Notes under the pieces: generated by a model | Databases searched by the model: none | Told to the model about the DNA's origin: nothing | The model's input: the letters and a program-made list of their open reading frames with translations, nothing else | Translations under genes and position numbers: made by a program | Assembly (NCBI GenBank): GCA_000827265.1 | Contig: KN834809.1 | Coordinates: 1 to 48,078, forward strand | DNA length: 48,078 nt | Reading direction: 5' to 3' | Source: Collybiopsis luxurians FD-317 M1 | Taxonomy: Eukaryota; Basidiomycota; Agaricomycetes; Agaricales; Omphalotaceae | Shown here: positions 3,391 through 48,078 of the stretch, piece by piece | Position numbering within the stretch: the stretch's first letter is position 1 | Layout: every line of letters begins with the position of its first letter

Positions 3391-3409
3391 CTACAAAAAT
3401 AGTTTGCAG

Positions 3410-3715
3410 TTATCCAGCTGTTTAGCTACTGCACATATTTTCTACAAAAATAGTTTGCAGTTATCTAGCCGTTTAGCTACTGCACATACTTTCTACAAAA
3501 ATAGTTTGCAGTTATCTAGCCGTTCAGCTACTGCACATACTTTCTACAAAAATAGTTTGCAGTTATCTAGCCGTTCAGCTACTGCACATACTTTCTACAA
3601 AAATAGTTTGCAGTTATCTAGCCGTTCAGCTACTGCACATATTTTCTACAAAAATAGTTTGCAGTTATCCAGCTGTTCAGCTGCTGCACATATTTTCTAC
3701 AGAAAATATGTGTGG
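3410..3715 (+). repeat. 51-bp minisatellite, six units, open reading frame preserved
   Basis: Six head-to-tail 51-bp units differ at only a few positions. Because 51 is a multiple of three, one plus-strand frame stays open through all six (3404-3718) and reads repeated LQLSSRSATAHTFYKNS-like 17-residue units. No start context, flanking exon or family match was found, so the open frame may be a by-product of the repeat length. Confidence 0.85.
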
Positions 3716-5169: not shown

Positions 5170-8100
5170 TCAATAATACATGGCATTTGCTTGTGCCGAA
5201 TCCCATGTCCTTGTTCTTGCACCTCTGTTTACATTTTCCCAGTTCTCCACAGCAAGGCAGTCCTCAGCAAGATGCAAGAAGTGTGTAGACTCTCGCTCCA
5301 CAGTCTTCAGCATTTGAAGATCTCAGAATTGAAGTTGATATTCCAATCCATCCAGGAAGTCACACCCAGTCTGAATTATCAAATGCATTTGTTGTTCAAA
5401 GGATTCCTGGGATGCATACAAGACCTCTTCATCATCATCCTCTGTATCATTGCCGTCACTGTCTAGATTGTCTGAGGCTTGGGCTGAAGGGTTCAGCAGA
5501 GGATGAGAGAGAGTAGAGTATGGAATTGTGGGGCTCGAAGGAGGTAAGCTGTCAAACTGTTTGCCTAAAGAATCTGCTATCAACCTTTGTTTCAGCTTTA
5601 GGCTGGAGTGGCGCCAAATGGGAAATGTATGGTTTCATTTAACTTCATAGAAGAACCTGGGCGAGACCTCCTCTGTCATCTGCACCAGATGTTTGCAGAT
5701 GAGGAATCAACTCATAGTGAAACTTGGGCAAGTGCACACCCATTGAACAACATCAGGCTTGTATCTGGGATCCAGTGGATAAGATATACTCTTTGTCGAG
5801 CATTCCTTCCAGTCCTTTTTGAAAGCTTTTCACCAGGAACTACATTCTTGATACAATTGGCCTACAGGCTGCAGGAGTAAATCAAGTTTTTGGTAGTATA
5901 TAGGAGCAAGTTTTGCAGTGAGGATCCAGATGAGAAAGTCGACACAAGGTTTGTGAAAATGGTGTAGAAAATTGTTCTTGATTTTACACCAGCTACACAT
6001 TCAATGGTAAGAAAATGGTTTACCTCTAGTAATACTTGAATACTCACTGTGCTTCCACCATCATTGTGGTTTGCAATACAGGTAAATCTTTGTGCACAGA
6101 GTGTGCCCAAAGCTCCCATCTGCCTGGTCTATACCAGTTTTCCCACATGTACACCCATACCTCTCTCAGTTCATTTTTGACACAGTACAAATACATTTCC
6201 TTTACAGCCCAATAGCGTATTCTGTCCCTAGTTGGCACAGAGTATCCAGGAATCATGGGATGAGCATTCAGATGGTTCACCATCATCTGAATAATCTTCT
6301 CACGATGGATGTCAGGGCAAAAGGCATGCTGTTCATCAGAATTGTCTTCTTCAGTGTCACTAGTGCTAATTTCATGCTCTGCAGGTGTTGTGCTGACTAT
6401 GTGGATAAGATTGATGAGCTGACCTGTGGGCATCTGGACTTGGGTCACATGAGGCTTTTCCTTTACTGCCTCATTCGCTTCATTATTGTTGTCATCTTCT
6501 ATGTCACTTGTGCCATGGATGGGAAGGGTAATGAGTGGGTTGTGTTGGGGAATACAGAGAAGGATAGAATTCAGGTTGGAATCCATCCTTCAGACAAGAG
6601 GCTGATAATAGTCAAGCCCCCCTTCATGCTCATTCTTATCTGCTCTTCCGAGTGGATGGAACTGCAGGTCAATGAAGGAGAATTCATTCTTTGCTCTGCC
6701 TGGTCAGTATGGTGTTGTGGAAAGTTTTGATTTTGCCAAACATTTGCAAACAGCCTGTTTCATGTGCCAATAGCATAATTGAATCTTTGCATCTACCCAC
6801 ACCTCTCTCACCATCCCAATTTCCACCATGTCTTTATCCAGGTGAACAAATGAAGGGTTAATGCCCCACTTATCTTGAAGACCCTTTGTCCACTCGGTAA
6901 GTGCAGTCATTCGCTTATTCTGAGAGATGGCATTGACAGTTGATAGGAGACAATAGGACAGGGGGAATCCAGCATTATCTGCCTCCGCCATGACACAGTA
7001 TAGCTCAAGGTGTTTTGAATTTGTTTTATCTGATAAATGTGAGTACATTTTGTGGATGAACCAGATAGCTAGACACTCACATGTAGCGTCTAATGCAACC
7101 TCAACAGCTCCCTTGCCAAGCTGACCTGCAATTTTTTTAATGGTCCAGCTCAACTGTTCAATGCCTTTGGTAAGGTTAATTGTTCCCACTTCAATTTTGT
7201 CCCTGAGCTCATCCAAGAGTAGTACAGCTGACTCGATTTGATTGTCAGCTCATTTCCAAATCTCTTCAGATAATTTCATCCAAGTGAAATATATTTGAGA
7301 TGCAGTAACATTTGGGGTTTTTTTCTGAATTAGTGGAACAAGGTTGACCAGTTTGCAGGTTGCCATATTGCTTTGAATGGTCTCGATAGTGTCTACAGGC
7401 ATGGCAACATCATAGTATGGTTTGTGATTCACCTCATGGTGAATATTGACCCTGACTAGAACTTTTGCAGCATTGGAAAGATCTGTACATACAGAAATGG
7501 TAGTGCGGCTGTAACAGTTGTAGCGCTCCATACCAATAGTGTTGCGGTAGATGGCATTCTCCTTGGTGCTTTTCTTGGAATGTTTTTTATGATCGGCATC
7601 TTGGGAGCACCAATAATGCATTCGGATGCCAGTTTTTGTCTTTGTATTGTCGCGTACACTGATCAAGTTGTAAGTTAAGATTTCACTTGCAAATAGGTAA
7701 ATGCATATGTGAATCTGAATCCTGTAGCGGTCCATACTTTGCAAGCTGTCATCCTCACTTTTTCTCTGTGAGAAATGAGCGGGTCAAAGGCCATTGTGTA
7801 TGCACCATGGAATGTCCCTGTTCCTTTTGTGCCGAGTGAGCATTTGAGGGCAAGGAACATTTCTTCAGCTGTGCCATATACCATACATCCCTGGTTGTAT
7901 GGTTCAGTTATTGAGCTATAGGATACTAAATGGTTCATATTTACATGTGGTCTGTCTCTGTCTTCACTACCGCTGTCTTCTCCCCTAAATCTGCCAGTTG
8001 TAGCCAAGTTCATGTGTCCATCGTGTCGGTCTGCAAGAATCAAGCACTTTGGTGCTGGTCCTGAGGTCTCGAAGGTGTCTGCACGCAGTCTTTTGCTGGC

Positions 8101-8274
8101 TGATTGCTGGGCTTCAGTATCAGGCTCCAATAAACTTTTGGCAGCCTTCTCTTTCAGATAGTCTTTTTTCCTTCTATCCCGACAACACTGACAGGTAGTG
8201 CCTACCCAATTGGGGGGCAACAGAGAAGGACATTTGCTACACTTGGGTCCAGGAGGATTATTTTCGGGGTCCAT
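5170..8274 (-). pseudogene. MULE transposase with SWIM zinc finger, decayed
   Basis: The start ATG at 8274 opens a Cys-rich N-terminus (C-x2-C ... C-x2-C) and a ~200-residue first segment. A DNA-binding-like segment follows at 7744-7250 (GIRMHYWCSQDA). Next is the MULE catalytic core in the 7216-6704 frame, with first Asp in ALDAT, second in HLDKDMVEIG, and the C-x2-H motif CYWH. Then come an acidic linker and WYRPGRWELWA (6586-6044), an intron, FLHHFHKP and the SWIM motif CTCP...CKH near 5700, and an Asp/Glu-rich tail ending at 5170. Lesions seen: TGA at 5707-5709 inside the SWIM finger and at 5635-5637, TGA replacing Trp near 7249, and a frameshift near 5325. The enzyme is therefore not expected to work. 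Introns are partly guessed; the family assignment is firm. Confidence 0.85.
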
Positions 8275-8479
8275 CGGTAGGAAATGCTCAAGTATGCAGC
8301 GACAGTGGACTAAATTTCTTGTTCCGAAGTCCTAAAACCTAACCCTAGTTACATATTGGAAATAATAGGTAGTACAACATGTGACAAGAAAATATGTGTA
8401 TGCGATGCGTAGAGTTCAACCTAAGACGCGCTTTGGGAGTGTGGCGGAAACTGCCTTTCCCGAAGATTCCGATATTGCG

Positions 8480-12820: not shown

Positions 12821-15800
12821 ATGGAGCTACCTAACATCGGGTCTGAATCATTTACGACAATTTCTCCAAGCGTCGGCTCCTTTCAGAATGCACACGACTT
12901 CCAGATGCACAATCCCAGGTTTACAAACATTGACGGAGATTACATTATTCATCGCGGTCCAAGTGAGTACCTCATTTGTATGTGGCATCTTGAACTTCGT
13001 CTTGAGCACTTGGGCATTAAACAGGGGTAAGCTTTGGGACTTTCATCTGATCTAGCTGGGACTCGGGAATTGAATCAGTACCTCCAGGTTGTTTACACTA
13101 TCAAAGGCCATTTGCGCGGTAATATTCTGCAACTGGAAGATTATTTTTCTGTGGGTTCCTGCCAAGAAGGAACGATAGGGGAAAGGGTTGATATTGTACG
13201 GAGGTTTGATCGGGAGGAGGACCTAGAAACATTCGAAAATCGTCTTCGACGGTCAAGGTCAGAGTTTGTGAAATTTAAGCTCACTAGCTTACTGACACAT
13301 TATTTATCACATCAAGTTGGGCTCCGTTTAGTATGCAACCACTTTGGAGACTCAATATCAGTGGGTTTCCGTGTTTGGCAGTATCATCTGCACGTGAGCT
13401 CCCTTTACTGATCTCAAGTTTCCCCTGGGTCCTGAATGAAGTCGACGGCAGCTGTGTATACATTGCAAGAAATGTTTGAAGGAGAACTTCCTTCTAAAGC
13501 AGTACAAGAAAACTTGGTAGGATATTTTATATCTATCATGTCATAAAAGAGTGCTAAAAGGGATGAAGTATATCAAACTTACTGTATGACAGCTATTACA
13601 CCACTCAGTTAGGTAGTACACTCATGGGCATACTTCAATATAGACTTTTTTTCAAGAGAAAACCAAAGTCTATCCTGGACGGTGGGATAGTTACAAGCTT
13701 TGGAAGGGAGAAGGGAAGTACAAGAACCTTAGGCTGTTTGATCAGGGTGGAAACTTCACAGTCAACCCGGAACAACTAAATTTGCTGGGACTGCTTTATG
13801 AAGAATTTGAGAATTTCCAGGTTCTTTGTAGTCATGTTTCGAACTGAGTAAAGGCTGACAAATGAGTCTAGAAACATGGGGATGTGCGTTTCTATGAAAA
13901 TGCAGGACATTATCATAGTAGGTGCATTAGGAAAGGTAAGAACATATTTGATCTGATATAAAAAACCAATAATAAGGACGGTGAACCAGAAGGACCAGAT
14001 GATCCAGCAGTGATGCATATTAGATCAAATGAGGTCAATTTCATGAGATTGAATGCGGATGAACAAAAGGGCTAATAAAAATGGCATCTGATATTTTCCA
14101 TAGGTGGTGAGTGTCCAAATAGAATATTCGGTGCTCAAGAATAAGTAATGGAAATGAAATTGCCCCTTCCTGTAGTTGGTGAGTTTATTGCCCTCCAGGT
14201 CCCCCAGAAATCACTCTCTGCTTACTGCATTGAAAAATACCCTACCCCTGTACTAGAGGGTAAGCTTCCCATTTGGAAATCAATCTCTGCTCATTGTATT
14301 GGCAATCCCCCCTCCCATAGTGGGTGAGTTATTCATATTGCATGTCCATTGGAAATGAATCACTACTCACTGTATTGAAAATTCCTGATTCCTATTACTA
14401 GAGGGTGAGAAAACTTCCCACCCAGAAATTAATCTCTGCTTACTGCATTGGAAATTCTCCCTTCTCATAGTCAGTAAGTCATTCATCTCACATGCCTATT
14501 GGAAATCAATTTCTGCTTACTACATTGGAAATTCTTCCTCCTCATAGGCAGTGAGTTCTGGATCTCCCATGTCTCATGGGAATCAATCTGCTCACTGCAT
14601 TTGATATTTCCCATTCCCATAGGTGGTGAGTTATTTATCTGTCATGTGTCTTTGGAAATTAATCTCTGCTCACCACCTTGAAAAAATCTCCTATTCCATA
14701 TATAGTCAGTGAGTTCTTCATCTCCCATGTCCCCTTGAAATCAACCCCTGCTCACTGCCCTGCTCATAGACAGTGAGTTTTTTTATCTGGAAATCAATGA
14801 CTGCTCACTTTATTGGGAACTCACCCTTCCATAGAAAGTCAGTGCTTGATTGCTTGTGTTTCTTAGAAATCAGTTTTTGCTTACTGCAGTGTAAATTTCT
14901 CCTTCCTATAGGAAGTAAGCTTTGTATCTGGAAGTCAATCTTGGCTCACTGCACTGAAAATTCCCTCTTCCCATAGACAGTGAGTCTTTCGTCTGGAAAT
15001 TAACTTCTACTCGCTGCATTGGAAATTCCTTCTTCCTACAGAGAGTAAGTTTTTGTCTGGAAATTAATCACTGCTGACTGCATTGCCCTTCCCATAGACA
15101 GTGAGTCTTTCAGCTGGAAATCCATTTCCATTGTTGACTGAGTCTTACTGCACTGGAAATCATACTCCTATAGGCAGTGAGTTTTTCAAATGGAATCTCT
15201 GTTCACTGTATTCAAAATTACCTCCTCCCACCATAGACAGTAATTTAAAAGTTTCTTATCTGGAAGTTAATCTCTGCTCACTACATTGAAAAATTTTTTT
15301 TCCCACAGGTGGTAAATTCTTCATCTTCAACCATGTTGGAGGTGAGTTGTGCCTCTCCTGCTTGTCCCCCCCAAATCAATGTCTGCATTGAAAATCTCCT
15401 TCCCATAGACAGTGAGTTTTTTATTTGGAACTTCACCTCTGCTCACTGCATTGAAAATTCCCCCTTTCTATAGGTGGTAAATTTTTTATCTGGAAATTAA
15501 TCTCTGTTTAATGTATTGGAAATTCTCCCTTTCTATAGAATGTGAGCATTCATCTAGAAATTGATCTCTGCTCACTGCACTGGAAATATCCCCATAGAAA
15601 GTGAGCTTTCTATCTGAAAATCAATCTCTGCTTACAGTACTGGAAATTCCTCCTGCCCATAGTATTATGTGAGCATTCATCTAGAAATCAATCTCTGCTC
15701 ACTGCACTGGAAATCAACCTCTACTAACTGCCCTTCCCTTAGGAGGTGAATTTTTCCTCTGGAAATTGATCTCTACTCACTGCATTGGAAATTTCCATTT

Positions 15801-18165
15801 CCCAGACGGTAAATTCATCCCCTATATCCCATGGGAATTACTCTCTACTCACTGCGTTGGAAATTTCCATTTCCCAGACGGTAAATTCATCCCCTATATC
15901 CCATGGGAATTACTCTCTACTCACTGCATTGGAAATTTCTATTTCCCAGATGGTAAATTCATCCCCTATATCCCATGGGAATTACTCTCTGCTCACTGCA
16001 TTGAAAATTTCCCCTTCCCATAGACAGTGAGTTTTTCATCTGTCATGCCTCTGGAAATTAATCTCTGCTCACTGCCATGAAAATTTTTTCTTCCTATAGT
16101 TGGTGAGTTTTCATCTCTCATGATCCTTGCTGGAAATGAATTTCTGCTTGCTGAATTGGAAATACCCCCCTTCACATAGATGGTGAGATTTCCTTCTGAA
16201 TTTGAATCTCTTCTCACTGCTTCCTCCTTCGCCTAGTCAGTGAGTCCTTCATCTCCCATGTCTCTGGAATTAATGTCTGCTCACTGCATTGAAAATTTTC
16301 CCTTCTCCATTACATAGTTGGTGGGTTCCTCATTTCTTTTGTTTCCTGGAAATCAAGCTCTTCTTATTACCTTCTTTTACAGTGGGTGAGTTCTTCATCT
16401 CCCATGCCTTCAAATCATTTCCTGCTCACTGCTTTGGAAATTCTCCTTTAGTGGGTAAGTTCTTTATCTCCCATGTCCCCTTGAAACCTTGTTGAAACCA
16501 ATCTGTGCTTACTACATTGGAATTTCCCCTTCTCATACTAGCCAGTGAGTTCTTCATTTCCTATGTTTCTTGTATATCTCCACTGGAAATTTCCCTTTCC
16601 CATAGGAGGCGAGTTCTTCAACTCTCATAATTCTTGGAAATCAATCTCTGCTCACTGCATTGGAAATTCTCCCTTCCAATAGGAGGTTAGTTCTTCCTTA
16701 TCCATCTCCCCTGGAACTCAACCTCTACTCACTGTCTCCCTTTAGTCTGTGAGTCTTTCATCTCCCATATCCCCTGGAAGCCAATGTCTGCTTAAGACAC
16801 TGAAAATTCCCCTTCTCACAGAATGTAAGCTCTTCAACTCCCATGTCTCCTGGAAGTCATTTGCCAACTACTGCACTGGAAATTCCCACTTCCCATAGAT
16901 GGTAAGTCCTTTGTGTTGCTTGCCTTCAGCCAGCTGATGTTCACTACCTGGCAAATCTCTGCCATCTAGTTTGTAAGTGATTCCTCCACATTCTTTCATA
17001 TAACTATTACTTGACTTTTTTGCAACTTTTAGGATGTGTGTGATTTTATATCTTTTGATGTCAATGCATACCTACAGTGATGGACCTAATTTGTTCCCTA
17101 GCTCGTAAGTTGCTCCCTTCGTTTTCATCTCCTTGCTTGATCATAATGCAATTGCCCTTACTTTTAGTTTGTAAGCTACTCATTTTATATTTGTTTCACT
17201 GCATTTCTCATTACTATCCTGGAATGCAATTCATCCTTTAGAATGTATATTCTCATTTCAACTTCTCGCTATTTTACTTTATCTACTTCTTTCTTATGGC
17301 CAGCCGGTGGGTAGCTGCTCTCCTTCTACCATTCTTTGAGAAAGTTCATAACCTGGGTGTATTTTTTGTGTGCTATAAAGGTAAGTCTTTTGCTTTATAT
17401 GAGTGTGGCATTAAGTTCCTCATCCCGAATATATTCCTATTCAGCAAAGTCTCACTTTTACCAATGAATCAATGATCGAAATCACTGTAGATGACAACAA
17501 CCCTGATAGTGCTCATGTCCTGTCTACAGAAGTTGTTTTTCATCCCGACATTCCAATTTCAGATAATATCACTGGTGCTATTCCTGCTTCCTCTGGTCCT
17601 TCTGGCCCCTCCTGCTACATTAATGATATTGGGCTACATGGTGATCAAGATCCTTTATCCATTTTCAATATACTGGTGCTCAGTATTTTACAGGAAATGG
17701 CTCCAAAACTGGTAGCAGTCACCGAGAGAAACACAAAAACAGGGCTGCACCACAGACAGTTGCAAAAAGTCACGTGCCTGAATTTTTGGCACCTGTGGTG
17801 CCATATAGCGACAATGAAAGGCCCAGGACACGTAGCAAGACTAAACAAGTTGCATTGACTGCAAATAACAACATACCAGATGACATTGCCTTTTCACCTG
17901 CCAAGAAGGACAAGTCGGCAGAGGGTGAACAATCTGCGACATCACAGAAAAAGTATTCATGGAGTAAGTGAAAGATTTAGAAGATATATTTGGGTTGCTA
18001 ACCAGCCATCTGTCAGTTTCCAGGTTTTCTGAAGTCATCTGGAAATCCTGTTTTATTCAGTTGAATGATGAATCGGAAGGGCTAGAGACTCAAAGAATGT
18101 GGTGGGATGAAGGACTCGGACAGTGGAACGGCCCAGGTGGACTGAAATATTTCAACTTGACATAG
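12821..18165 (+). CDS. Microexon-array gene, copy B (most diverged array)
   Basis: No known family recognised. Exon 1 (from ATG 12821 to donor GTGAGT at 12962) reads FQNAHDFQMHNPRFTNIDGD, a short F-N-A-x-D-F ... FTNI pattern seen at the N-termini of many uncharacterised agaricomycete proteins. Further exons encode YTIKGHLRGNILQLEDYF (13080s), a 12-nt exon YHLH before GTGAGC at 13393, YTLQEMFEGELP (13450s) and WKGEGKYKNLRLFDQ (13690s). The last 5' exon (13980s) either ends at TAA ~14074 or, by a donor at AATGAG/GTCAAT and CTAAT branch, splices into the array at 14101. After the array come the 77-nt exon 17304-17380 (RWVAALLLPFFEK in frame), a Ser-rich exon, a basic exon with RSKTKQ and PAKKDK, and a final exon ending FNLT at 18165. 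Whether 5' part, array and 3' part form one transcript is inference. Confidence 0.5.
14104..17244 (+). repeat. Array B: ~45 intron-like units separated by 3-nt candidate microexons
   Basis: Reading left to right, the bases between acceptor AG and donor GT are gtg, ttg, agg, tgg, agg, tca, then gca, gtg, tca, aca, aaa, gaa, then aca, aga, aca, gca, aca, gtg and so on to aat at 17242. Of 47 positions, 45 keep AG-N3k-GT/GC. One is six nucleotides (tattat near 15663), one lacks the AG (near 15350) and one lacks the donor (tga near 17076). Intron-like parts vary from ~55 to ~90 nt and are only loosely similar, but donor, CTCAC/CTTAC-like branch box, pyrimidine tract and AG persist. No intact triplet is TAA, TAG or TGA. 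Three near-identical 69-bp units at 15785-15990 show recent local amplification. Confidence 0.75.
17304..17380 (+). other. 77-nt exon following array B
   Basis: After CAG at 17301-17303, one base plus 25 codons plus one base, then donor GTAAGT. The frame reads LLLPFFEKVHNLGVFFVCY. Copy E has the same length (47391-47467) with mostly conservative replacements (W/L, A/T, F/L, V/A, H/Y, N/D, K/Q) and several synonymous changes, as expected for a real exon. Copies A and C are one base shorter. Its length equals that of one array unit, so a unit origin cannot be excluded. Confidence 0.6.
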
Positions 18166-25458: not shown

Positions 25459-28400
25459 ATGGCGCAAACAAAAATCGGGTCATTTACAACAACTGGATCT
25501 GGTCCAAGCATCGGCTCCTTTCAGAATGACAACTTTCAGATAAATAATACTAGTTTTACAAGTGTTGCTCGTGGTCCAAATACTAGCTACTTTCAGAATG
25601 CACACGACTTTCAGATTGTAGATTCCACCTTTACAAACATTCAGTATAGTCCAAGTGAGTACCTCATCTTCATGTCGCATCTTCACCTTCATCTCAAGCA
25701 TTGAATAGGGGTAGGCTTCTAGACTTTTTCTGATTTAGCCAGGAGTTAGATCAATATCACCAGGTTGGTTATATTGTCAAAGGCCCTTTGCGTCGTGGCA
25801 TTTTGCAACTGGGAAATTATTTTATTGTGGGTTCCTGTCAAGAAGGAATGCCAGGGGAAAGGGTCGATATTGTACGGAGATTTGATTGCGAGGAGGACCG
25901 AGATACATTCGAAGGTCGCCTTAAACGCTCGCGGTGAGAATTTGAAATTTAAGCTGAATAACTTATTCACTCATCATTCATGGCATTAAGTTGGGCTGGG
26001 CAATTGAGCATGCAACCACTTTGGAAAATCAACATCGGTGGTCATCCATGCCTAGTAGTATCATCTGCACGTGAGTTCTCATTGTTGACATCAGGTTTCA
26101 ACTGGATTCTGAATGAAGTTGACAGCAGCTGTGTATACATTGCAAGAAATGCTTGGAGGGAAATTTCCTTCTGACGAAGTCCAAGAAAATATGGTACGAT
26201 ATTTGCCACCTGTGAAGCAGTAAAAGAGTGCTAAAAAGGATCAAGTATATCAAACTTATAGTAAGACAGCTTTCACACTACAGTGTTAGTGGGGTGGTAC
26301 ACCAATGCGCATACTTAAATATAGGCTTTTTTTCAACAACAAAGTGAAGTTTATCCTGGACAGTGGGATAGTTATAAGCTTTGGAAAGGAGAAGGGAAGT
26401 ATGAGAACCTTAGGCTGTTTGATCAAAGTGGAAATTTCATAGTGAACCCAGAAGAACTAAAAGTGCTGGGACTGCTTTATGAAGATCGTGAGGAATTCCA
26501 GGTTTTTTGAAGTCATTTTTTAAACTGCAAGGGCTGACAAATGAATTTAGGAACATGGAGATGTAAATTTCAATAATAAGGTAATAGAATATCATTGCAC
26601 ATGGGATGAGTGGGGTAAGTATACAGCTGATCTAGTAGGAAAACACTAACAATGAGAATGGCATATCAGGCCGGGAAGATAAATTAAACCATTTAACAAT
26701 GATGCATATTAAATCAGAGGAGGTAGATTTGACAATACTAGAAGGGAATAGACAAAAGTACTAATAAAAATGGCATCCAATATGCTCCATAGGTAGTGAG
26801 TATCTGGACACAATATTTGAACATTAAAGTTTGGTAACTGAATTGAAATTATCCTTCCTACTTCATTGGAACTTCCCCCTTCCCATAGCTTGTGAGTTCT
26901 ACATCTCCCCTGTCCTCTGGAAATCAATCTCTGCTAACTCCATTGGAAATTCCCCCTTCCCATAGTCTGTGAGTTCTGCATCTCCCATGTCCCCTGGAAA
27001 TTAATCTCTGCTCACTCCATTGGAAATTCCCCTTTCCCATAGGATGTGAGTTCTGCATCTCCCATGTCCCCTGTAAATCAATCTCTGCTCACTCCATTGG
27101 AAATTCCCTCTTTCCATAGTTGGTGAGTTCTGCATCTCCTATGTCCCCTGGAAATTAATCTCTGCTCACTCCATTGGAAATTCCCCCTTCCCATAGGGGG
27201 TGAGTTCTGCATCTCCCATGTCCCCTGGAAATCAATCTCTGTTCACTCCATTGGAAATTCCCCCTTCCCATAGCGGGTGAGTTCTGCATCTCCTATGTCC
27301 CCTGGAAATCAATCTCTGCTCACTGCATTGGAACTTCCCTCTTCCCATAGTTTGTGAGTTCTGCATCTCCCATGTCCCCTGGAAATCAATCTCTGCTNNN
27401 NNNNNNNNNNNNNNNNNNNNNNNNNNNNNNNNNNNNNNNNNNNNNNNNNNNNNNNNNNNNNNNNNNNNNNNNNNNNNNNNNNNNNNNNNNNNNNNNNNNN
27501 NNNNNNNNNNNNNNNNNNNNNNNNNNNNNNNNNNNNNNNNNNNNNNNNNNNNNNNNNNNNNNNNNNNNNNNNNNNNNNNNNNNNNNNNNNNNNNNNNNNN
27601 NNNNNNNNNNNNNNNNNNNNNNNNNNNNNNNNNNNNNNNNNNNNNNNNNNNNNNNNNNNNNNNNNNNNNNNNNNNNNNNNNNNNNNNNNNNNNNNNNNNN
27701 NNNNNNNNTTAATCTCTGCTCACTCCATTGGAAATCCCCTTCCCATAGCGGTGAGTTCTGCATCTCCCTATGTCCCCTGGAAATTAATCTCTGCTCACTC
27801 CATTGGAAATTCCCCCTTCCCATAGATGGTGAGTTCTGCATCTCCCCTGCTCCCTGAAAATCAATCTCTGCTCACTCCATCGGAAATTCCCCCTTTCCAT
27901 AGTTGGTGAGTTCTGCATCTCCCATATCCCCTGGAAATCAATCTCTGCTCACTCCATTGGAAATTCCCCCTTCCCATAGGATGTGAGTTCTGCATCTCCC
28001 ATGTCCCCTGGAAATCAATCTCTGCTCACTCCATTGGAAATTCCCCCTTCCCATAGTATGTGAGTTCTGCATCTCCCATGTCCTCTGGAAATTAATCTCA
28101 ACTCACTCCATTGGAAATTCCCCCTTCCCATAGCGGGTAAGTTCTGCACCTCCCATGTCCCCTGGAAATCAATCTCCACTCACTCCATTGGAAATTCTTC
28201 TTTCCCATAGACAGTGAGTTCTGCATCTCCCATGTCCCCTGCAAATTAATCTCTGCTCACTCCATTGGAAATTCCCCCTTCCCATAGTTGGTGAGTTCTG
28301 CATCTCCCATGTCCCCTGGAAATCAATCTCTGCTCACTCTATTGGAAATTTTCCCTTCCCATAGTCTGTGAGCTCTGCATCTCCTATGTCCCCTGGAAAT

Positions 28401-29793
28401 CAATCTCTGCTCACTCCATTGGAAATTCCCCCTTCCCATAGGAGGTGAGTTCTGCATCTCTCATATCCCCTGGGAATCAATCTCTGCTCACTCCATTGGA
28501 AATTCCCCCTTCTTATAGCCGGTGAGTTCTGCATCTCCTCTGTCCCTGAAAATCAATCTTCTTTCTGTTTCCTATCTTGAGCCAGCTGATGTTCATTACA
28601 TGTGGAAATCTCCATCTAGCCTGTAAGTGGTTTACTTAGATTTTTTCATATAACTATTACTTACTACATTTCTATGTAGTATGTAAAGTTTTAATTATTT
28701 GCATACTCTGTGATCAATATACTGATGGGGTCTCATTCATTTTGACAGTTTGCAAGTCCTCTATTTAATTCTTTCAAAACTGTGTCTAACAGATTTTAAA
28801 TTACCTCAATTTTTGCAACTTTTAGGATGTGTGTGATTTTCCATCTTTCAACATTATTCCATGCCTACAGCAGGTGAAATATTTTGTTTCCTAGTTTGTA
28901 AGTTCCTTCTTTCTACTTCTTCCTGCATTCTGATTGGTTATAATGTGATTATCCTTGCTTTTAGTTTGTAAGTTACTCACTTTATATGTGTTTTACTACA
29001 TTCCTCCTTACCATATTCTTTCATTCTTTTAGAATGTATGTTCTTTGTCCTCATCTTTGCCCACTTGTTGCCCCATCTAATCCTTTCCTTATTGTTAGCC
29101 TGTCAGTCACTGCTTTCCTTCTTCCATTCTTTGGAAAGGCTTATAATCTTGTTGCATTCTTGTGTACTATAAAGGTGAGTCTCTTGCTTTCAGAATCATT
29201 CAAGTGTTGTCTTGGGTTTCTTATCCCATATGTGCTGCTATTCAGCCTGGTCTTGCTTCTATTGCCACCACTGGATCTATGTCTGCTTCTTCTGGCCCTC
29301 CTGGCTTCCTCCACCATGACTACACTGCTGATTTTGGGCCAAATGGTATTCAAGATAGTTTCCCTATTTTCACTATACTGATGCCCAGTATTTTGCAGGA
29401 AATACCTCCAAAGCTGGGAGCAGTTATGGAGAGGAACACAGAAACAGGGCTGAATCACAGATTGCAGAAGGCCAGATGTCTGAGTCCTTGGCACCTGTGG
29501 TACCATACAGCCACAATGAAGGGCCCAGCATACATCGCAAGACTAAACTTGCACTGACCACAAACAATGACACACAAGAAGAAATTGCTTCTTTACCTAC
29601 TGGGGAATGCAAGTTGACCAAGGGAAATATGCAGCAAGACCAGATTGAACAACTTGGAGAGAGCATTCAAGGAGAAAGGGAAAGATGTGCGAGTTTCATT
29701 TGTATTAATGAGTGTCTTGTGATAATCGGCTATCAGCTCCCAGGGTCTCTGAAGTCTTGGGGATATGCTTGTTTATTCTATTCAGTTCAATGA
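25459..29793 (+). CDS. Microexon-array gene, copy C (youngest array)
   Basis: The start at 25459 matches copy B. The first exon has the FQNxxDFQI...FTNI pattern three times (SFQNDNFQINNTSFTSV, FQNAHDFQIVDSTFTNI), one or two more than B, before donor GTGAGT at 25655. Later exons parallel B: YIVKGPLRRGILQLGNYF, the 12-nt exon YHLH, YTLQEMLGGKFPSDEVQENM, WKGEGKYENLRLFDQ and EHGDVNFNN. The 5' part may end at a TAA near 26763, or splice through donor GAG/GTAGAT, TACTAAT branch and CCATAG into the first 3-nt exon at 26793; the 70-nt interval is the same in B. After the array come the 76-nt exon 29099-29174, the Ser-rich exon and a basic exon (29476 onward, RKTKLALTTNN). The 76-nt exon is one base short relative to B and E, and the tail differs, so the protein may be impaired. 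Confidence 0.5.
26793..29035 (+). repeat. Array C: 77-bp intron-like units with hypervariable 3-nt candidate microexons
   Basis: From 26889 the units recur every 77 bp: GTGAGTTCTGCATCTCCCAT, then a ~50-nt stretch with TGCTCACTCC (branch-like CTCAC), TTCCCCCTTCCCATAG, then three bases. The three bases before the gap are ctt, tct, gat, ttg, ggg, cgg, then ttt. After the gap they are atg, ttg, gat, tat, cgg, aca, then ttg, tct, gag, ccg. That is 12 different triplets in 17 units, whereas the 74-nt parts are nearly identical. Singletons follow in unrelated intron-like sequence: cct 28620, tat 28680, ttt 28749 (GC donor), gat 28826, cag 28871, ttt 28895, ttt 28965, aat 29033. The first triplet (gta, 26793) also lies outside the 77-bp family. 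One unit beside the gap has only two bases (27749-27750). Confidence 0.85.
27398..27708. other. Assembly gap (311 N) inside array C
   Basis: A run of N interrupts the 77-bp array. The true number of units is unknown and the gap size may be arbitrary. The unit at its right edge has several small indels, including a two-base instead of three-base spacer, which suggests low consensus quality there. Confidence 0.99.
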
Positions 29794-30705
29794 TGATTGA
29801 AAATCTTTTATCGGAAGGGTTAGAGACTCAAAAGTTAGAGTGAGATAAAGGGTTTGGACAGTGGAATGGTGGACAGAATTATTTCAGCTTGATATAACCT
29901 TGTTTGATGGCAGGCACTCAAGTGTATTTTTCATTTAATAAGACAGCTAGCCAGGTTTTGCAAGTTGTCACCAATCATATGATGTGTTATTATTTGGCAG
30001 GACAAGATAAGTCTTGGTTGCTTTCAACTGCAACTCACACTCCACTCTGTTGGTATGTCTATTACAGGGTAAAGGGAGAAGTGGATGAAGAATGGATAGG
30101 TGCTGGGAAATAGTCTATCGGAGATGTCAGTGTATTCCAGGCTGAGTATGATATATATATATATATTTGTGCTTCCCTCAATGAATTTGAGTGCCCAGTG
30201 ATCAGAAGCAGTCCAGCAAACATTTCTAAAAAATTGCTTCTTGATTTTCGATTTTGACCATGGTGCCTTACAATCTGCCATGGCACAGCATGAAAAAAAG
30301 GGAAAATTCAATTGCAATATGGCTTGAGGAAAATGAAGGCAATATTACACACATAAACAAGCACAGCTGGGTTTTCAACAAGGCTCACTCATAACTCTTA
30401 CTCAGGTTATTGCAAGGTTCAAGCTTACTGAGAGCTGGCATAGATTGCACAATAATGCCCAGGATCAAACAATAAAACTCTTTTGTCCTGCAATCTCTGT
30501 CATTCTAAATGCAAGTAATTCTGCAAGAGGTGCATCAGGAAAACTGTCCCAAGGTAATGTCAAGAATTCTCAAAAACATTTTGATAATGTTCCCGTAGTC
30601 TCCATAGACTGATATTTCACATAACTCTGGAAAATTATAATAGTTCAACACTGCCCTTGAGAAATGTTGACTACGACAGGAACAGTACTGCTATAGAACC
30701 ATTTA
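29794..30705. other. 3' flank of copy C, no gene
   Basis: The first ~700 bp repeat the convergent intergenic segment seen at 18166-19100, including a short AT repeat at ~30150-30168. The expected convergent membrane-protein gene is missing here; instead a transposase fragment and gene copy D follow. Confidence 0.55.
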
Positions 30706-31152
30706 CTATTGATATAAATTAAAGTACATATGTATATCTACAAATGAGCTCAGGTAGAATCATGAACATGCGTCTAAGACTGATTCATGTGTCCATCCTG
30801 CAGGTACTGTTCCACCCCATTTTGGATACAAATGAACACTTTGGCATATTGTATCAAGTGGGATAACAGAAACAGTGTGAGGCTTGTCCCTCTGTAGCAA
30901 CAGTCTAACATGGTAGAGTCCAGTGTGTCAGTCTAGATTCTGTGAAAATCTTGAGAACCATTCTACAAATGCTAGAATGACCAGTGGAGAAGTATTCTTG
31001 GGGAATAGCTGGTCTAAATGCTTCTCTGAAAGGGAGAATATTGCCTGTACACAACCAACATCTGGAAAATTACTTAAAGCCTGGGTTCTTGTAGGCTCCT
31101 TTGAATAGCCTCCAGGAGTATCTAAAGTGACCAAGCAACCCAGGCTGCTCAA
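30706..31152 (-). pseudogene. DNA-transposase C-terminal fragment (KDZ/Plavaka-like)
   Basis: On the minus strand a nearly open frame reads LAFVEWFSRFSQN, then LYHVRLLLQRDKP, VIPLDTICQSVHLYPKWG and FYLSSFVDIHMYFNLYQ before TAG at 30706-30708. There is one in-frame TGA where a codon before FYLS is expected. The order 'AFVEWF - short linker - VIP..I..SVHL.P.FG - FYV..F.D...Y' is typical of the C-terminal end of large fungal DNA transposases of the KDZ/Plavaka type; the exact family is uncertain. No catalytic part is present. Confidence 0.6.
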
Positions 31153-31829
31153 TGACCATAGGCACTTTCAAGGGGCTGAAGGACACCCCCCTATTTTTGT
31201 GGAAGTTCAGAGTAAATCAATGAAAAAGCATATGCTTTCAAATCATATGATAGACCATTAGTTCCTCTGAGGCATGCATGAGTAAGCCTGGAGCATTTGT
31301 AGGTCATAAATTATAACCTCAGATTGTAGTAGCTGAACTTCAATACTGTTCAAGTGATATCTATTTTATTTCATTCTTTCTGAGGATCAAAAATTCACAA
31401 TTGCATGTATACAGTGGTAGCATTGGAGTATTCTTGACAAACCTCAGTAAGCAAGCAAAGACTTGAAATAATTCTAGACTATGTGAAGTTTTCACTATTT
31501 GCATCTCCTACAATCAACATACTACTGATAGGGTGTCATTCATTATTCCAGTTTGCAAGTTATCTGCTTTATTCATACAAACATTGCTTAACAGATTTTG
31601 AATTACTTGAATTTTTGCAATTTTTAGGATGCATGTGAATGTCCATCTTCCAGTAGTATCAATACATGCCTATAGTAAATAATCTGTTTTCTTCCCAGTT
31701 TGTAAGTTGCTCCCTCTAATCTCATCTTGCTGCATTCTGAATGGATCATAATGTGATTGCCCTTGCTTTTAGTTTGTAAGCCATCTTATATATCTTTTAC
31801 TGCATTCATCCTTATCACTTTGGACTGCA

Positions 31830-32058
31830 ATCATCAGGAAAATTACCTTTTTCCCAGGCTGCCCAGAGGTCTCTGGAGACACCACCAAAATCCTAGGGAT
31901 CCCAGGGATCCCAGGAATCTCTCAGATCTCTCCTAGAGTCTTTTGGAGCTTTGAGATTGCTCTGGGATCTTTCAGGGTCCCTAGGGATCCCTAGGAATTA
32001 GGGGGTGTCTCCAGAGATCTTTGGGAAGCCTGGGCAAAAGGTAATTTTTTCTGATGAT
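31830..32058. mobile_element. MITE-like element with long terminal inverted repeats
   Basis: Left arm ATCATCAGGAAAATTACC, then CCCAGGCTGCCCAGAGGTCT and CTGGAGACACC. The right arm is the reverse complement with few mismatches (GGTGTCTCCAGAGATCTTTG, then GCCTGGGCAAAAGGTAATTT and CTGATGAT). The whole ~229 bp can fold into one hairpin and has no coding capacity. It interrupts the intron before the aat singleton of copy D; the other copies lack it. The target duplication is short and unclear (AT, or part of the palindromic ends). Confidence 0.85.
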
Positions 32059-32481
32059 CTTTCATCTTTTTAGAATGTATGCTCTTTGTTCTCATTTTCT
32101 GGCACTGTGTTGCCCCTTCTCATCCTTTTTTTATCATTAGCCAGTGTGGCATTGCTTTCCCTCTCACATTCTCTGGAAAAGCTTATACTAAGCCTTGTGC
32201 ATTTTTTTGTGTACTATGAAGGTGAGACTCATTTCACAGTTATTAAAGTGCAGTTTTAGGTTTCTCATCCCAAATTTATTACTATTAAGCCCTGTCTCTC
32301 TTTCAGCCCTGCTTCTAAGTCCAAATTTCCATCTACCAATCTTTTGGGCACTGCTCAGTCAGGATCTTCTATTTCCCAAACTTCAATCTTGGGTACCACT
32401 GGTTCTATGTCTGGAAGTTCCTATGGCCCTTCTGGCTTCACCCACTATACTACTAATCTTGGGATAATCAGATGATCTTGC

Positions 32482-33009
32482 TGTCGTAAAGCTGGTACAA
32501 ACATCCATTCCTAACCCCTATTCATTTCTCTTTTACTATACATCTTTCACATGACCGCGTTTATGACTAACTTTCATATCAATACCTTTTGGACATACAA
32601 CTCCTCCCTATCTCCACTCCACACGGTATCATTGTTCTTTTTCTATTTCGTTCCCACTGTCATTGTTTTATTAATGAACTGTCCTTGTTTCTCTTCTCGC
32701 ATCTGTCGCATGACCACATGCTCCATACCTTTTATTCTCGTAGCTGTCACTTAGCTATTGTCTTCCAGTAGCATTAGTTTCTTGTCTTATCCTCCAGTAG
32801 CATTAGTCTCTCTTACAGCTTACTACAGTATATATACCTACCACCTGTAACCTGAGTCCCTATCTTGACCTCTCTGTCGATTGGGACCAGGTGAGTATCC
32901 TGCTTGTACCAGTAGACTATTTAATTAACTCTGTCAATTGGGACCAGACTCTGCCTAAACTGATTACCATGCTCTTGAAAGCCACTCCGCTGTAAACCGC
33001 TTCATGACA
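32482..33009. mobile_element. Solo LTR (528 bp) with 5-bp target duplication
   Basis: The element starts TGTCGT and ends ATGACA (TG...CA with an imperfect 6-bp terminal inverted repeat) and is flanked by CTTGC at 32477-32481 and 33010-33014. A TATATATA box lies near 32831. It sits in an intron of copy D where copies A, B, C and E have continuous sequence (TACTGATGCCCAG-type intron end). No internal retrotransposon sequence is present, as expected after LTR-LTR recombination. Confidence 0.85.
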
Positions 33010-40862: not shown

Positions 40863-42227
40863 ATGGGTACCGACTACTACAAGTTATTAGGCATTAGCAA
40901 GAGTGCCGATGAAGCTGAAATCAAAAAGGCTTATAAGAAAATGGTAGGTATATTGGCTGCCCTGCTAGGTCGGCCTACTTGCTGTTTACCTGCTGTTTAC
41001 TAACTAGTTTCTACTTGACAGGCATTAAAATGGCATCCGGATAGAAATAATGGTTCAGAGGAAGCCTCGAAGAAGTTCAAAGAGGTGTGTTTTTACTCTA
41101 CCTCACCGCACACGAATACGTAACTCATGTTCTCGTTATCTCTCTCCTCCTAGATATCGGAAGCCTTCGAAGTCCTTTCTGATAAGAATAAACGAGCCGT
41201 ATACGACCAGTTCGGCGAGGAGGGTCTCAAAGGTGGAGGAGGCCCACCTCCCGGCGCAGGCGCAGGTCCAAGCGGATTCTCCGGATTCAGTGGGTTCCCT
41301 GGCTCTGGCGGTTCGACTTTCACGTTCACTTCCGGAGGTCCCGGAGGAGCGTCGTTCAGTTCATTTGGTGGACCAGGAGGAGGCGGCGGCTTCAATCCGA
41401 CGGATCCTAACAAGATATTCGAGTAAGTACTTACACGTTATTGACGTATGTGTGTTAATATCAAGTCGCTAACCATCTTTCTCTACGTCCACAGATCAAT
41501 ATTCGGGAACGGTTTTGGTGGATTTTCCGGAATGGGTGGAATGGGTGGTGGACGATCAGGCATGCGCTCGCAGATGTTCGATGACGACGACGATATGGAC
41601 GGATCCTTCTTCACTCACAACATGCCGGGAGGCATGCCCCGTTCATCCCGTCCCCGATCCTCCCGTGCCAACTCGTCTTCATCACCAAACGAAATCACCC
41701 GCCCGCTCAAAGTGTCTTTAGAAGACCTTTACAACGGAGCCGTCAAGCACCTCAAAGTCGGCCGGAGACTACTAAACGGGTCAACGGAAGACAAGGTACT
41801 AGACATCCAGATCCACCCGGGTTGGAAATCCGGTACCAAGATCCGGTTTGCAAGGGCCGGGAACGAACAGCCTAGTGGGGAAGCGCAGGATTTGGTGTTT
41901 GTGGTGGAGGAGAAGCCGCACGAGACGTTTAAGAGGGAAGGGAATGATCTTGTGTGTCATGTGCCGCTTTCGCTGGTGGAGGCGTTGACGCACGAGAGTG
42001 GGCTGAAGAAGATGGTGGAGGTTTTGGATGGGAGGAAGATTCAGGTAAACGTGCCCGCGGGGGTGGTGAAGCCTGGGCAGGAGACGACGGTGCAGGGCGA
42101 AGGGATGCCGATTAGGAAGGATGGTGCGGTAAAGAAGAAGGGAGATTTGGTTATTAAATGGAATGTTGTGTTCCCGGATCGGCTAACGTCTTCGCAGAAG
42201 GAGGGGTTGAAGAAGGTGCTTGGGTGA
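40863..42227 (+). CDS. SIS1: Class-B DnaJ/Hsp40 co-chaperone (Sis1/DNAJB1 type)
   Basis: Four exons: 40863-40943, 41022-41084, 41154-41422 and 41495-42227. They total 1146 nt (381 aa) and are in frame. The J-domain is at the N-terminus ([27 protein letters not shown] contains the HPD motif that stimulates Hsp70 ATPase). A Gly/Phe/Pro-rich linker follows ([13 protein letters not shown]; later [15 protein letters not shown]), then an acidic patch (FDDDDDMDG) and two C-terminal beta-barrel domains ([46 protein letters not shown]-like [12 protein letters not shown]). There is no Cys-rich zinc domain, so it is class B, not Ydj1 type. The C-terminus lacks the EEVD-like tail, as expected for the co-chaperone. 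Expected role: cytosolic and nuclear Hsp70 partner. Confidence 0.95.
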
Positions 42228-44211: not shown

Positions 44212-45305
44212 ATGTCACTATCAAACTCAAATGCTCTCCAGAACCTCATCATATTCCCTGAAGACTGCCAGCTTGTTGGTCTTAGTAACTGGGCAGTATT
44301 CTGTGACCGTATGAAGAGCGTTGCTTGTTCTACTGGTCTCGGAGGATATTTGGACAGAACAATCACAGCTCCTCCAACTCTCACTGCCCCCACTGCTGGC
44401 ACTGCCCTGCCACAACTGTTGTTACTGCTATCAATTCCTGTAATCCATCTGTCAAGGAGTGGGATCTCCATGATAGTCATCTTGTTGGGATCATTTATCA
44501 GAACATCAAGGATCCCCTCTCTATTGGAGTTACTCAGGACATGCCATCTAATGCTATGTGGACAACACTTACTGGAGAGTACAAAACTACATCAGCTGCA
44601 GCTCAAACTCTTGTGAAAGAGTGTATTCAACAGTTCAAATATGTATCTGGAACTGGAACGCCTTTCGAAGAATATTTTGGGCAGCTTGAAGCCCTCCAAA
44701 AAGCCACTAGCAATGTAGGCTGTACCATTTCTGACAATGACTTGCATTCTCAATTCCTCACTTCCTTGTCCATTGAGTATCTGTGGGTGCTTCAGACCCA
44801 TAGTGCATGCTCATACTCTGACCTAAAATGTGCTCTCATGAAGTACAATATGATGGTTGAGTCCTCAACTAATACCTCTGGAAATGTGACAGTTCTGAAC
44901 ACCTTGGCTACTGCTGGTAAATCAGGTTCCAGGATCATTTGTGATAATTGCAAATGTACTGGCCATGTAAAGAGGAATTGTTGGACATGTGGAGGAGGAA
45001 GCGAAGGAAAAGGGCCTCGGTGGTATTCAGCTCCTAAAGGAATGGAACTGAACAAGTTGTCTGTCTCCCTAACTGTTGCGTCCACCTCGGCGTCTGATCC
45101 TGGTCCTGACACTGCAACTGCGGCAGCAACCATCTATGACTTTGGTGACTTTGAACTTGGAGGTACAACTCGCTATTTGGATCGCTCCTCCCCTTCTGAC
45201 TTTTCCTTCATCAGATTGGGAAGAGAGGCTTCTGCCTTTCTGAGCAGAACTGGGAGCAATACCATTAGTATACCATCATCCACTGTACCTCCTAAATCAT
45301 GTTAA
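44212..45305 (+). pseudogene. Ty1/copia-type gag with zinc knuckle, truncated
   Basis: The ATG at 44212 opens the gag N-terminus (NALQNLIIFPEDCQLVGLSN, then WAVFCDRMKSVACSTGLGGY). A frame change near 44400-44420 leads into the frame ending at 45305, which contains WTTLTGEYKTTSAAAQTLV, FEEYFGQLEALQKATSNVGC and the zinc knuckle CDNCKCTGHVKRNC (C-x2-C-x4-H-x4-C, 44940-44981), then GGGSEGKGPRW. Near 45170 RYLDRSSPSDFSF aligns with the YLDSGASDxxF aspartic-protease site but has lost the catalytic Asp-Ser-Gly. Protease, integrase, reverse transcriptase and the 3' LTR are absent; the element stops at a fragment of the membrane gene. Nonautonomous, dead. Confidence 0.8.
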
Positions 45306-46749: not shown

Positions 46750-48078
46750 CTAAGATTCATCATTCAAGTATCTCCTGAAGACTTCAGAAACCCTGGAAGG
46801 TGGGGGGTAGGCAGTTAGAGTAAGATACTTATCAATACAAAATATAAGTAACTCACGCATCTTTCAATTTCTCCTTGAATGCTTTTCCCTTGTTGAGTAC
46901 AGCCTTACCCTTTGTCAACCTGTGCTTCTTAGCAGGTGAAGGAGCAATGTCATCTGGTGTGCCATTATTTGTAGTTGGTGCAAGTTGTTTAGTCTTGCTA
47001 CATGTCCTAGACCCTTCAATGTCACTATATGATACCACAGGTGCCAAGGACTCAGATATATGGCCTTCTGCAATCTGTGATCCAGCCCAGTCTCTGTGGT
47101 TCTTTCCATAACTGCTCCCAGCTTTGGAGCTATTTCCTGCAAAAGATTGGGCATCAGTATATTGAAAATGTGGAAAGTATCTTGATGACCATGTAGCCCA
47201 AAATCAGTAGTGTGGTGGAAGAAGCCAGAAGAGTCAGAGGAAGCAGACATAGAAGTAGTGCCCAAAAGGTTGGTAGATGGAGATTTGAACTTAGAAACAT
47301 GGCTAGAAGAGTGAATAGGCTGAATAGCAATGCATGTGGGATGAGAAACCTAAGGCCACACTTAAATAACTTTGAAAATAAAAGACTCACCTTGATAGTA
47401 CATGAAGAATGCACCAAGATCATAAGCCTTTCTAAAGAGTGGAAGAAGGAAAGCAGTGACCAACCGGCTGACAATAAGAATTAGATAGGGTAACAAGTGA
47501 GCAAAGATGAGAACATAGAGCATACATTCTAGAAGAATGAAAAAAGATGGTGAGGAGGAATGCAGTAAAACACATATAAAATGAGAGACCTACAAACTAA
47601 AAGCAAGGACAATCACATTATAGCCAATCAGAATGCAGGCAGAAGAAGTAGAAGGAAGCAACTTACAAACTAGGGAACAAAATAGTTCACTTGTTGTAAG
47701 CATGGATTGATATTGGAAGATGCAAAATCACACACATCCTAAAAGTTACAAAAATTGAAGCAATTCAAAATTTGTTAGACAAAGGTTTTGAAAGAATCAA
47801 ATAGAGAACTTGCAAGCTGTCAAAATGAATGAGTCCCTATCAGTATATTGATCACAGAGTATGCAAATAATTAAAACTTCACATACTACATAGAAATATA
47901 GTAAGTAATAGTTATATGAAAAAATATAGGTAAGCCACTTACAGACTAGATGAAAATGTCCTCATGTAATGAACATCAGCTGGCTCAAGATAGGAAACAG
48001 AAAGAAGATTGATTTCCAGGGGACATGGGAGATGCAGAACTCACCATCTATGGGAAGGGGGAATTTCCAATGGAGTGA
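46750..48078 (-). CDS. Microexon-array gene, copy E (3' part, continues beyond the window)
   Basis: Minus strand, best-preserved 3' part. After the array (separate entry) comes the 77-nt exon 47467-47391, with RLVTAFLLPLFRKAYDLGAF in frame and donor GTGAGT. The Ser/Thr-rich exon (47300s-47200s) reads FKSPSTNLLGTTSMSAS and FFHHTTDFGLHG. The basic exon (to 46853) reads SQIAEGHISESLAPVVSYS, RTCSKTKQLAPTTNNGTPDD and PAKKHRLTKGKAVLNKGK. The last exon reads VSEVFRRYLNDES before TAG at 46750-46752. The Lys/Arg-rich KKHRLTKGK is a plausible nuclear localisation signal. One donor (G/GTCATC) is weak. No family recognised. Together with B this copy gives the best estimate of the true protein tail. Confidence 0.55.
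47526..48047 (-). repeat. Array E: 3-nt candidate microexons (minus strand)
   Basis: On the minus strand, from the window end inward: atg (48047-48045, within the 77-bp family, preceded by CATAG and followed by GTGAGT), then tct, tat, ctt (GC donor), gat, a unit with a mutated acceptor (ACAACAA/GTGAAC), ttt, ttt, aat (47528-47526). This is the same singleton order as copies A and C. The tandem array presumably continues beyond position 48078. Confidence 0.7.

Follow-up and report, generated by a model that had tools for sequence, protein, structure and literature searches.

Can one gene carry dozens of consecutive exons that each consist of a single codon? The question is raised by a 48,078-nucleotide stretch of the fungus Collybiopsis luxurians FD-317 M1 (GCA_000827265.1, contig KN834809.1, positions 1-48,078, forward strand; hereafter the window), where a gene that we call gene C (25459-29793) contains an array of intron-like pieces held three bases apart. 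The exons and splicing events described are predictions from sequence. We consider it likely that each three-base piece forms an exon of its own that contains one complete codon; these exons are predicted to be joined in order in the message of an orphan gene family of C. luxurians.

Acceptor-to-donor spacing in gene C and its relatives

Listing of the splice sites from 26793 to 29101 confirmed what an earlier sequence-only reading had described, namely a spacing of exactly three bases between acceptor and next donor at 26 of 27 positions, with a single exception (two bases at 27749) adjoining the run of N at 27398-27708. That reading had correctly placed an array at 26793..29035, though with too narrow an extent, as the array continues to 29101, past a 77-nucleotide (nt) repeat that ends near 28560. 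This repeat (74-nt intron plus three bases) spans 26860-28559 with 88-91% matching in Tandem Repeats Finder. The introns around the last eight microexons of gene C measure 57-74 nt and lie outside the repeat, and the three-base spacing is retained there. The reading had also described only one array, which belongs to gene C; the window holds further copies, comprising an older complete one with diverged introns (gene B, 12821-17971) and parts at 1-1300, 30500-33000 and 46900-48078.

Upstream of the array, GenBank protein GYMLUDRAFT_48025 equals gene C up to HIKSEE, except for one extra residue at exon 5, and includes an arginine supplied solely by a 2-nt exon (25709-25710). Outside the array, very small exons are thus already accepted in gene C, whose GenBank model requires one of 2 nt. 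A 2-nt piece (GG, GC, GT or AT) stands between acceptor and donor, between exons 1 and 3, in all 12 paralogues inspected (13025-13026 in gene B). Just upstream of the array, the last N-terminal exon closes with ..HLTMMHIKSEE in phase 0. A reading in which this upstream part ends at a TAA before the array was rejected, as the TGCTAAT in question sits in the next intron at the expected branch-point place; it is also ruled out by the paralogues, in which the exon is left in phase 0.

By our own count, 23 loci have the N-terminal exons of gene C in common, and in 22 of the 23 stretches examined at least four 3-nt exons follow the N-terminus in the splice chain. We counted distances of 0-24 from a pyrimidine-preceded YAG to a GTRAGY donor over 29 family stretches and observed 361 cases at distance 3; every other distance had 12 or fewer, and on the antisense strand of the same stretches distance 3 was found once. 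Genome-wide, the pattern CATAGNNNGTGAGT gave 95+115 matches, compared with 18+13 for the reversed pattern. The three-base spacing is not due to chance.

A chain search by dynamic programming scored donors, acceptors and intron length, allowing exons of 1-60 nt and leaving exon length unscored; its site weights were trained on pattern-found 3-nt exons of other copies, with copies A, C, D, E and F left out. It returned 36 chains with 481 internal exons, of which 427 measured 3 nt, 25 were other multiples of three and 29 were non-multiples. The antisense control yielded 3 chains with 29 exons, none of 3 nt, and shuffled sequence yielded no chain. Short exons of other lengths (up to 30 nt) were multiples of three in 20 of 32 cases. 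In the longest chain, M23e, 44 of the 45 exons are of 3 nt, and the exception, AGTGTAAAGT, can naturally be read as AGT followed by a donor GTAAAG. The CTCAC box that had been called branch-like also fits in position: a CTNAY with its A 18-40 nt upstream of the acceptor occurred in 316 of 509 inferred introns, compared with 148 of 509 after shuffling, with a peak at 28-31 nt.

These figures bear on the view that the array is a satellite, or the relic of a dying family, whose splice-like look was inherited from one ancestral intron. Some arrays are indeed 88-91% regular tandem repeats, the family occurs in C. luxurians only among the databases searched, and fragments and a transposon-like insertion are present. 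However, the 509 inferred introns have 57 distinct lengths, yet 427 of the 481 exons are of 3 nt, which means that descent from one repeat does not by itself account for the constancy of exon length.

Stop codons and reading frame

The three-base pieces lack stops in phase 0 alone. In a looser set of 456 pattern-found, clustered 3-mers there was one stop (a TAA in the decayed fragment at 30500-33000), compared with 32.5 expected from base composition, and the chain set contained none among 422 codons or among the 367 left without close copies. For the looser set, the probability of zero stops is about 2e-15 under independence, which related copies do not satisfy. When adjacent pairs were joined (n=358), stops numbered 0 in phase 0, 50 in phase 1 and 9 in phase 2. 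The bare pattern with no pyrimidine filter gave 370 sites without a stop, and outside the family 7 sites with 2 stops, a small control. The letters of a codon were linked more strongly than stop avoidance would make them (chi-square 330; maximum of 96 over 500 shuffles), and TGG (37 seen, 9.8 expected), TTT and GAT were in excess. Third-base C was scarce (7 of 456 codons), which CpG decay before the G of the donor would explain because a change from NNC to NNT is always synonymous.

The flanking exons enter and leave the array in phase 0. When exons were cut by alignment columns, 10 of 15 paralogues had an open N-terminal part in phase 0 and five failed; gene C, one of these five, has an open frame once its own exon boundaries are used. 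Its frame is identical without a possible 36-nt exon at 29139-29174, which is doubtful because the preceding intron would be just 37 nt. The gene B model, from the ATG at 12821 to the TGA at 17969, forms a single frame of 486 codons through the N-terminal exons, 44 array exons with introns of 53-111 nt, the codon CCG, a doubtful 36-nt exon and the two last exons.

Collectively, the spacing, the avoidance of stops and the phase-0 borders indicate that the three-base pieces are very probably real single-codon exons. The earlier proposal of intron-like pieces around single-codon exons thus holds computationally, with no stop among the 422 codons, phase 0 on both sides and a spacing kept despite intron divergence. 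A non-coding satellite, free of coding constraint, would not lack stops in one phase alone; together with the open frames of gene B and of the N-termini, this makes the satellite or relic view improbable. We assign an equally small probability to excision of the whole array as one large intron, or to use of its first and last units alone, by which the inner codons would never reach the protein. Gene B is consistent with this, being in frame with or without its array because both borders are in phase 0, but untranslated codons would not avoid stops solely in phase 0 over hundreds of units.

Codon variability, predicted order of splicing and possible use

To compare codons with their introns, we took 28 exact 77-nt units from copies A, C, E and F. 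The three exon positions had diversities of 0.69, 0.74 and 0.57, against an intron mean of 0.126, and over all 378 pairs 67% of exon bases differed, compared with 13% of intron bases. Nearest neighbours differed at 4.6 of 74 intron bases and at 1.96 of 3 exon bases, with the codon in common in 1 of 28. Where both flanking introns were 2.5-5% different (21 pairs), exon bases differed by 62%; in five pairs with less than 2.5% intron difference, four of them the same position in two genes, exon bases were 7% apart. At matching positions of close copies, intron and codon changes were 8.7/15.2%, 7.1/12.5%, 6.3/12.5%, 8.9/20.8% and 27.8/33.3%, so that in most such pairs codons change at about the intron rate or somewhat faster; in one pair codons changed far faster (55.6%, against 3.9% for introns; six codons). 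Hence a sense codon is strictly kept, but the identity of its residue is free to change. This pattern could come from strong diversifying selection that follows the duplication of units, or from an intron homogenisation that spares codons.

Near-identical introns around unrelated codons would also be accounted for by mobile, introner-like introns that entered a single ordinary exon between its codons. The at least 127 unit matches are, however, clustered on 11 contigs and are not single introns of unrelated genes (40 of 49 candidates scored), phase-0 insertion at every third base has no known cause, and the recurrence of one codon several times in a row (TCA in K23c) indicates that whole units were duplicated, which leaves this origin very improbable.

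If the three-base pieces are single-codon exons, the introns would be recognised by intron definition and taken out singly. Since simultaneous binding of an acceptor and a donor only 3 nt from each other is impossible, introns would be removed one at a time and splicing would be sequential. Each removal would add a codon to the end of the upstream exon and re-create an intact donor, in the manner of a ratchet that advances one codon per step. Tandem duplication of the intron-plus-codon unit, a change that never shifts the frame, is the likely way in which arrays lengthen and shorten, and the codons would diversify afterwards. It follows from the predicted structure that neighbouring sites are mutually exclusive and that units can be skipped in frame: with all units in phase 0 and stop-free, skipping any of them would still give a full-length protein.

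Random skipping, by which each gene would yield a large combinatorial library of in-frame variants, builds on this reading and concerns its use. Every unit being in phase 0 and stop-free, every subset is open; the donors and acceptors of the young array are nearly identical, so that nothing visible favours the nearest partner, and the codons are hypervariable. Against this, stop avoidance alone is equally expected under constant inclusion. Fungal splicing mostly pairs nearest sites across short introns, and such joining would yield one fixed order. We regard the library as possible, with the odds somewhat against it. Still more tentatively, the arrays may form a spliceosome-run engine of protein diversity, in which 20-60 single-codon exons are used in varying subsets, about 23 genes each give a cloud of in-frame peptides confined to a single hypervariable segment, and unit duplication with fast codon change renews the repertoire in the germ line. 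If true, this would be a recognition or decoy system without known counterpart.

The predicted product would begin with a conserved N-terminal part about 250 residues long, continue in a hypervariable segment of roughly 20-60 residues with much Phe, Trp and Asp, and end in a basic C-terminus that is probably disordered. The C-terminal part is alike in copies A, C, D, E, J, K and L. The predicted structure of the N-terminal part was uninformative (mean predicted local distance difference test score, pLDDT, 46), and by visual inspection only, no hydrophobic start of the kind expected for a signal peptide, a trait of flatworm micro-exon genes, was seen in the N-termini.

Copies in the window and relation to known systems

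The coordinates of the array genes and fragments are collected in the table below.

Table. Array genes, gene parts and related features of the window
Feature	Position	Strand	Basis
Gene A: 3' end of array (single codons from 33 on) and C-terminal exons; 5' part lost at contig end	1-1300	+	copy comparison
Gene B, nine N-terminal exons, ending ..MHIRSNE in phase 0	12821-12962, 13025-13026, 13088-13257, 13317-13393, 13452-13516, 13569-13583, 13644-13820, 13872-13935, 13990-14033	+	paralogue alignment
Old array of gene B, 44 exons predicted: 41 of 3 nt plus single ones of 6, 30 and 33 nt; codons predicted to read VLRWRSAVST... after HIRSNE	14104-17244, plus CCG 17304-17306	+	chain search
Gene B tail	17345-17380 (36-nt exon, uncertain), 17445-17640, 17694 to stop TGA 17969-17971	+	gene model
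Gene C, nine N-terminal exons	25459-25654, 25709-25710 (2 nt), 25764-25933, 25991-26070, 26129-26193, 26246-26260 (15 nt), 26325-26501, 26551-26614, 26670-26722	+	GenBank protein match, paralogue alignment
Gene C array, young part: 19 predicted microexons, mostly 74-nt introns	26793, 26889, 26966, 27043, 27120, 27197, 27274, 27351, 27749 (2 nt), 27826, 27903, 27980, 28057, 28134, 28211, 28288, 28365, 28442, 28519; span 26793-28521	+	sequence reading, site listing
Assembly gap within gene C array, 311 N; room for ~4 units	27398-27708	.	site listing
Gene C array, old part: eight predicted single-codon exons CCT TAT TTT GAT TTT TTT AAT CCT	28620, 28680, 28749, 28826, 28895, 28965, 29033, 29099; span 28620-29101	+	site listing; other copies with same spacing
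Possible 36-nt exon, 12 codons, phase 0 open in copies A, B and C; uncertain	29139-29174	+	sequence reading
Gene C last exons	29246-29345, 29399-29790; stop TGA 29791-29793	+	site listing; C-terminal similarity among copies
Decayed fragment resembling 3' part of array	30500-33000	+	copy comparison
Gene D: 3' end of array and C-terminal exon; runs beyond window to ~52800 on contig	46900-48078	-	copy comparison

The contig of the window starts inside an array (1-151), and contig C7 stops inside one (locus L012, position 1); the 5' half on C7 may belong together with the 3' half on C61 as a single gene that the assembly has split. In the family copy at locus L079 (contig C12, ~913000-920000), a transposon-like insertion, apparently with long inverted ends, lies in the intron before the last N-terminal exon. 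Elsewhere in the window we found open frames with a weak MULE transposase match (6044-8331, minus strand; PF10551, E 1.3e-4, below the curated cut-off), a Copia-type gag frame (44307-45305, plus strand; PF14223), an ordinary gene for a DnaJ C-terminal domain protein (41445-42227, plus strand; PF01556) and a second tandem repeat with a 51-nt period (3389-3708; 6.3 copies, 96% matching).

Searches against 5.8 billion proteins (phmmer, profile and full-length) gave 5, 9 and 2 matches, all in C. luxurians, and none to the proteins of flatworm micro-exon genes (MEG). The family had no Pfam match up to E 1 and none among solved structures (PDB), and no Rfam family matched the window. Annotation pipelines miss the array genes, with GenBank models stopping before the array or translating its introns.

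MEG have exons of 6-81 bp (3-81 in the abstract), mostly 15 bp, and introns of 100 to almost 5000 bp (PMC10526429). Under their structural definition a gene has seven or more exons, of which no fewer than half are microexons (<70 nt, divisible by 3), with runs of at least four (PMC7653826), and predicted gene B, with 41 of 44 array exons of 3 nt, falls within it. Runs of short exons in multiples of three, lineage-specific variable families and frame-keeping skipping are likewise common to both (PMC10526429, PMC7653826). By contrast, the C. luxurians exons are nearly all of 3 nt, with introns of 50-110 nt, hypervariable codons and a fungal host. Aphid bicycle genes, with about 17 exons on average, and megacycle, with more than 100 microexons, also belong to fast-evolving orphan families with many small internal exons of one phase (PMC9168663), but bicycle exons are in phase 2 and longer than one codon, whereas the array exons would be single codons in phase 0.

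Lone ultra-short exons are spliced in Drosophila homothorax (3 bp), Dactylellina lipS (two of 3 nt), Arabidopsis APC11 (1 nt) and Fusarium CYP621A (1 nt) (PMC7392893, PMC5639578, PMC4674806, PMC12940212), showing that the spliceosome can handle exons of 1-3 nt; they are single or paired, never tens in a run as predicted in C. luxurians. For APC11, intron definition plus recursive splicing was proposed (PMC4674806). The predicted ratchet resembles recursive splicing and stwintrons in its consecutive steps, one removal preparing the next donor (PMC4674806, PMC5639578). As described there, however, recursive ratchet points leave no residue and stwintrons are nested rather than serial, and our spacing count gave 8 sites at distance 0 versus 361 at distance 3. 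Introner-like elements are also families of near-identical fungal introns (PMC4457414), but they are spread over unrelated genes, whereas the C. luxurians units are tandem and confined to array loci as far as seen. We found no near-identical intron copies in unrelated genes among the at least 127 matches, the loci without a visible N-terminus being contig ends or partly covered.

The open-licence literature searched showed no case of tens of single-codon exons in succession whose codons vary far more than the introns around them, which agrees with the earlier remark that no such gene had been described. Against this background, the arrays appear as an extreme variant of the micro-exon gene kind, with a strongly supported structure and a predicted splicing. 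If spliced as predicted, they would set a new limit for the spliceosome, with tens of consecutive one-codon exons and neighbouring sites exclusive at every junction. A single natural substrate would then allow direct tests of intron definition, of ratchet-like splicing and of the order in which introns are removed. The arrays would also show how a genome can make a protein longer and vary it residue by residue without frameshifts.
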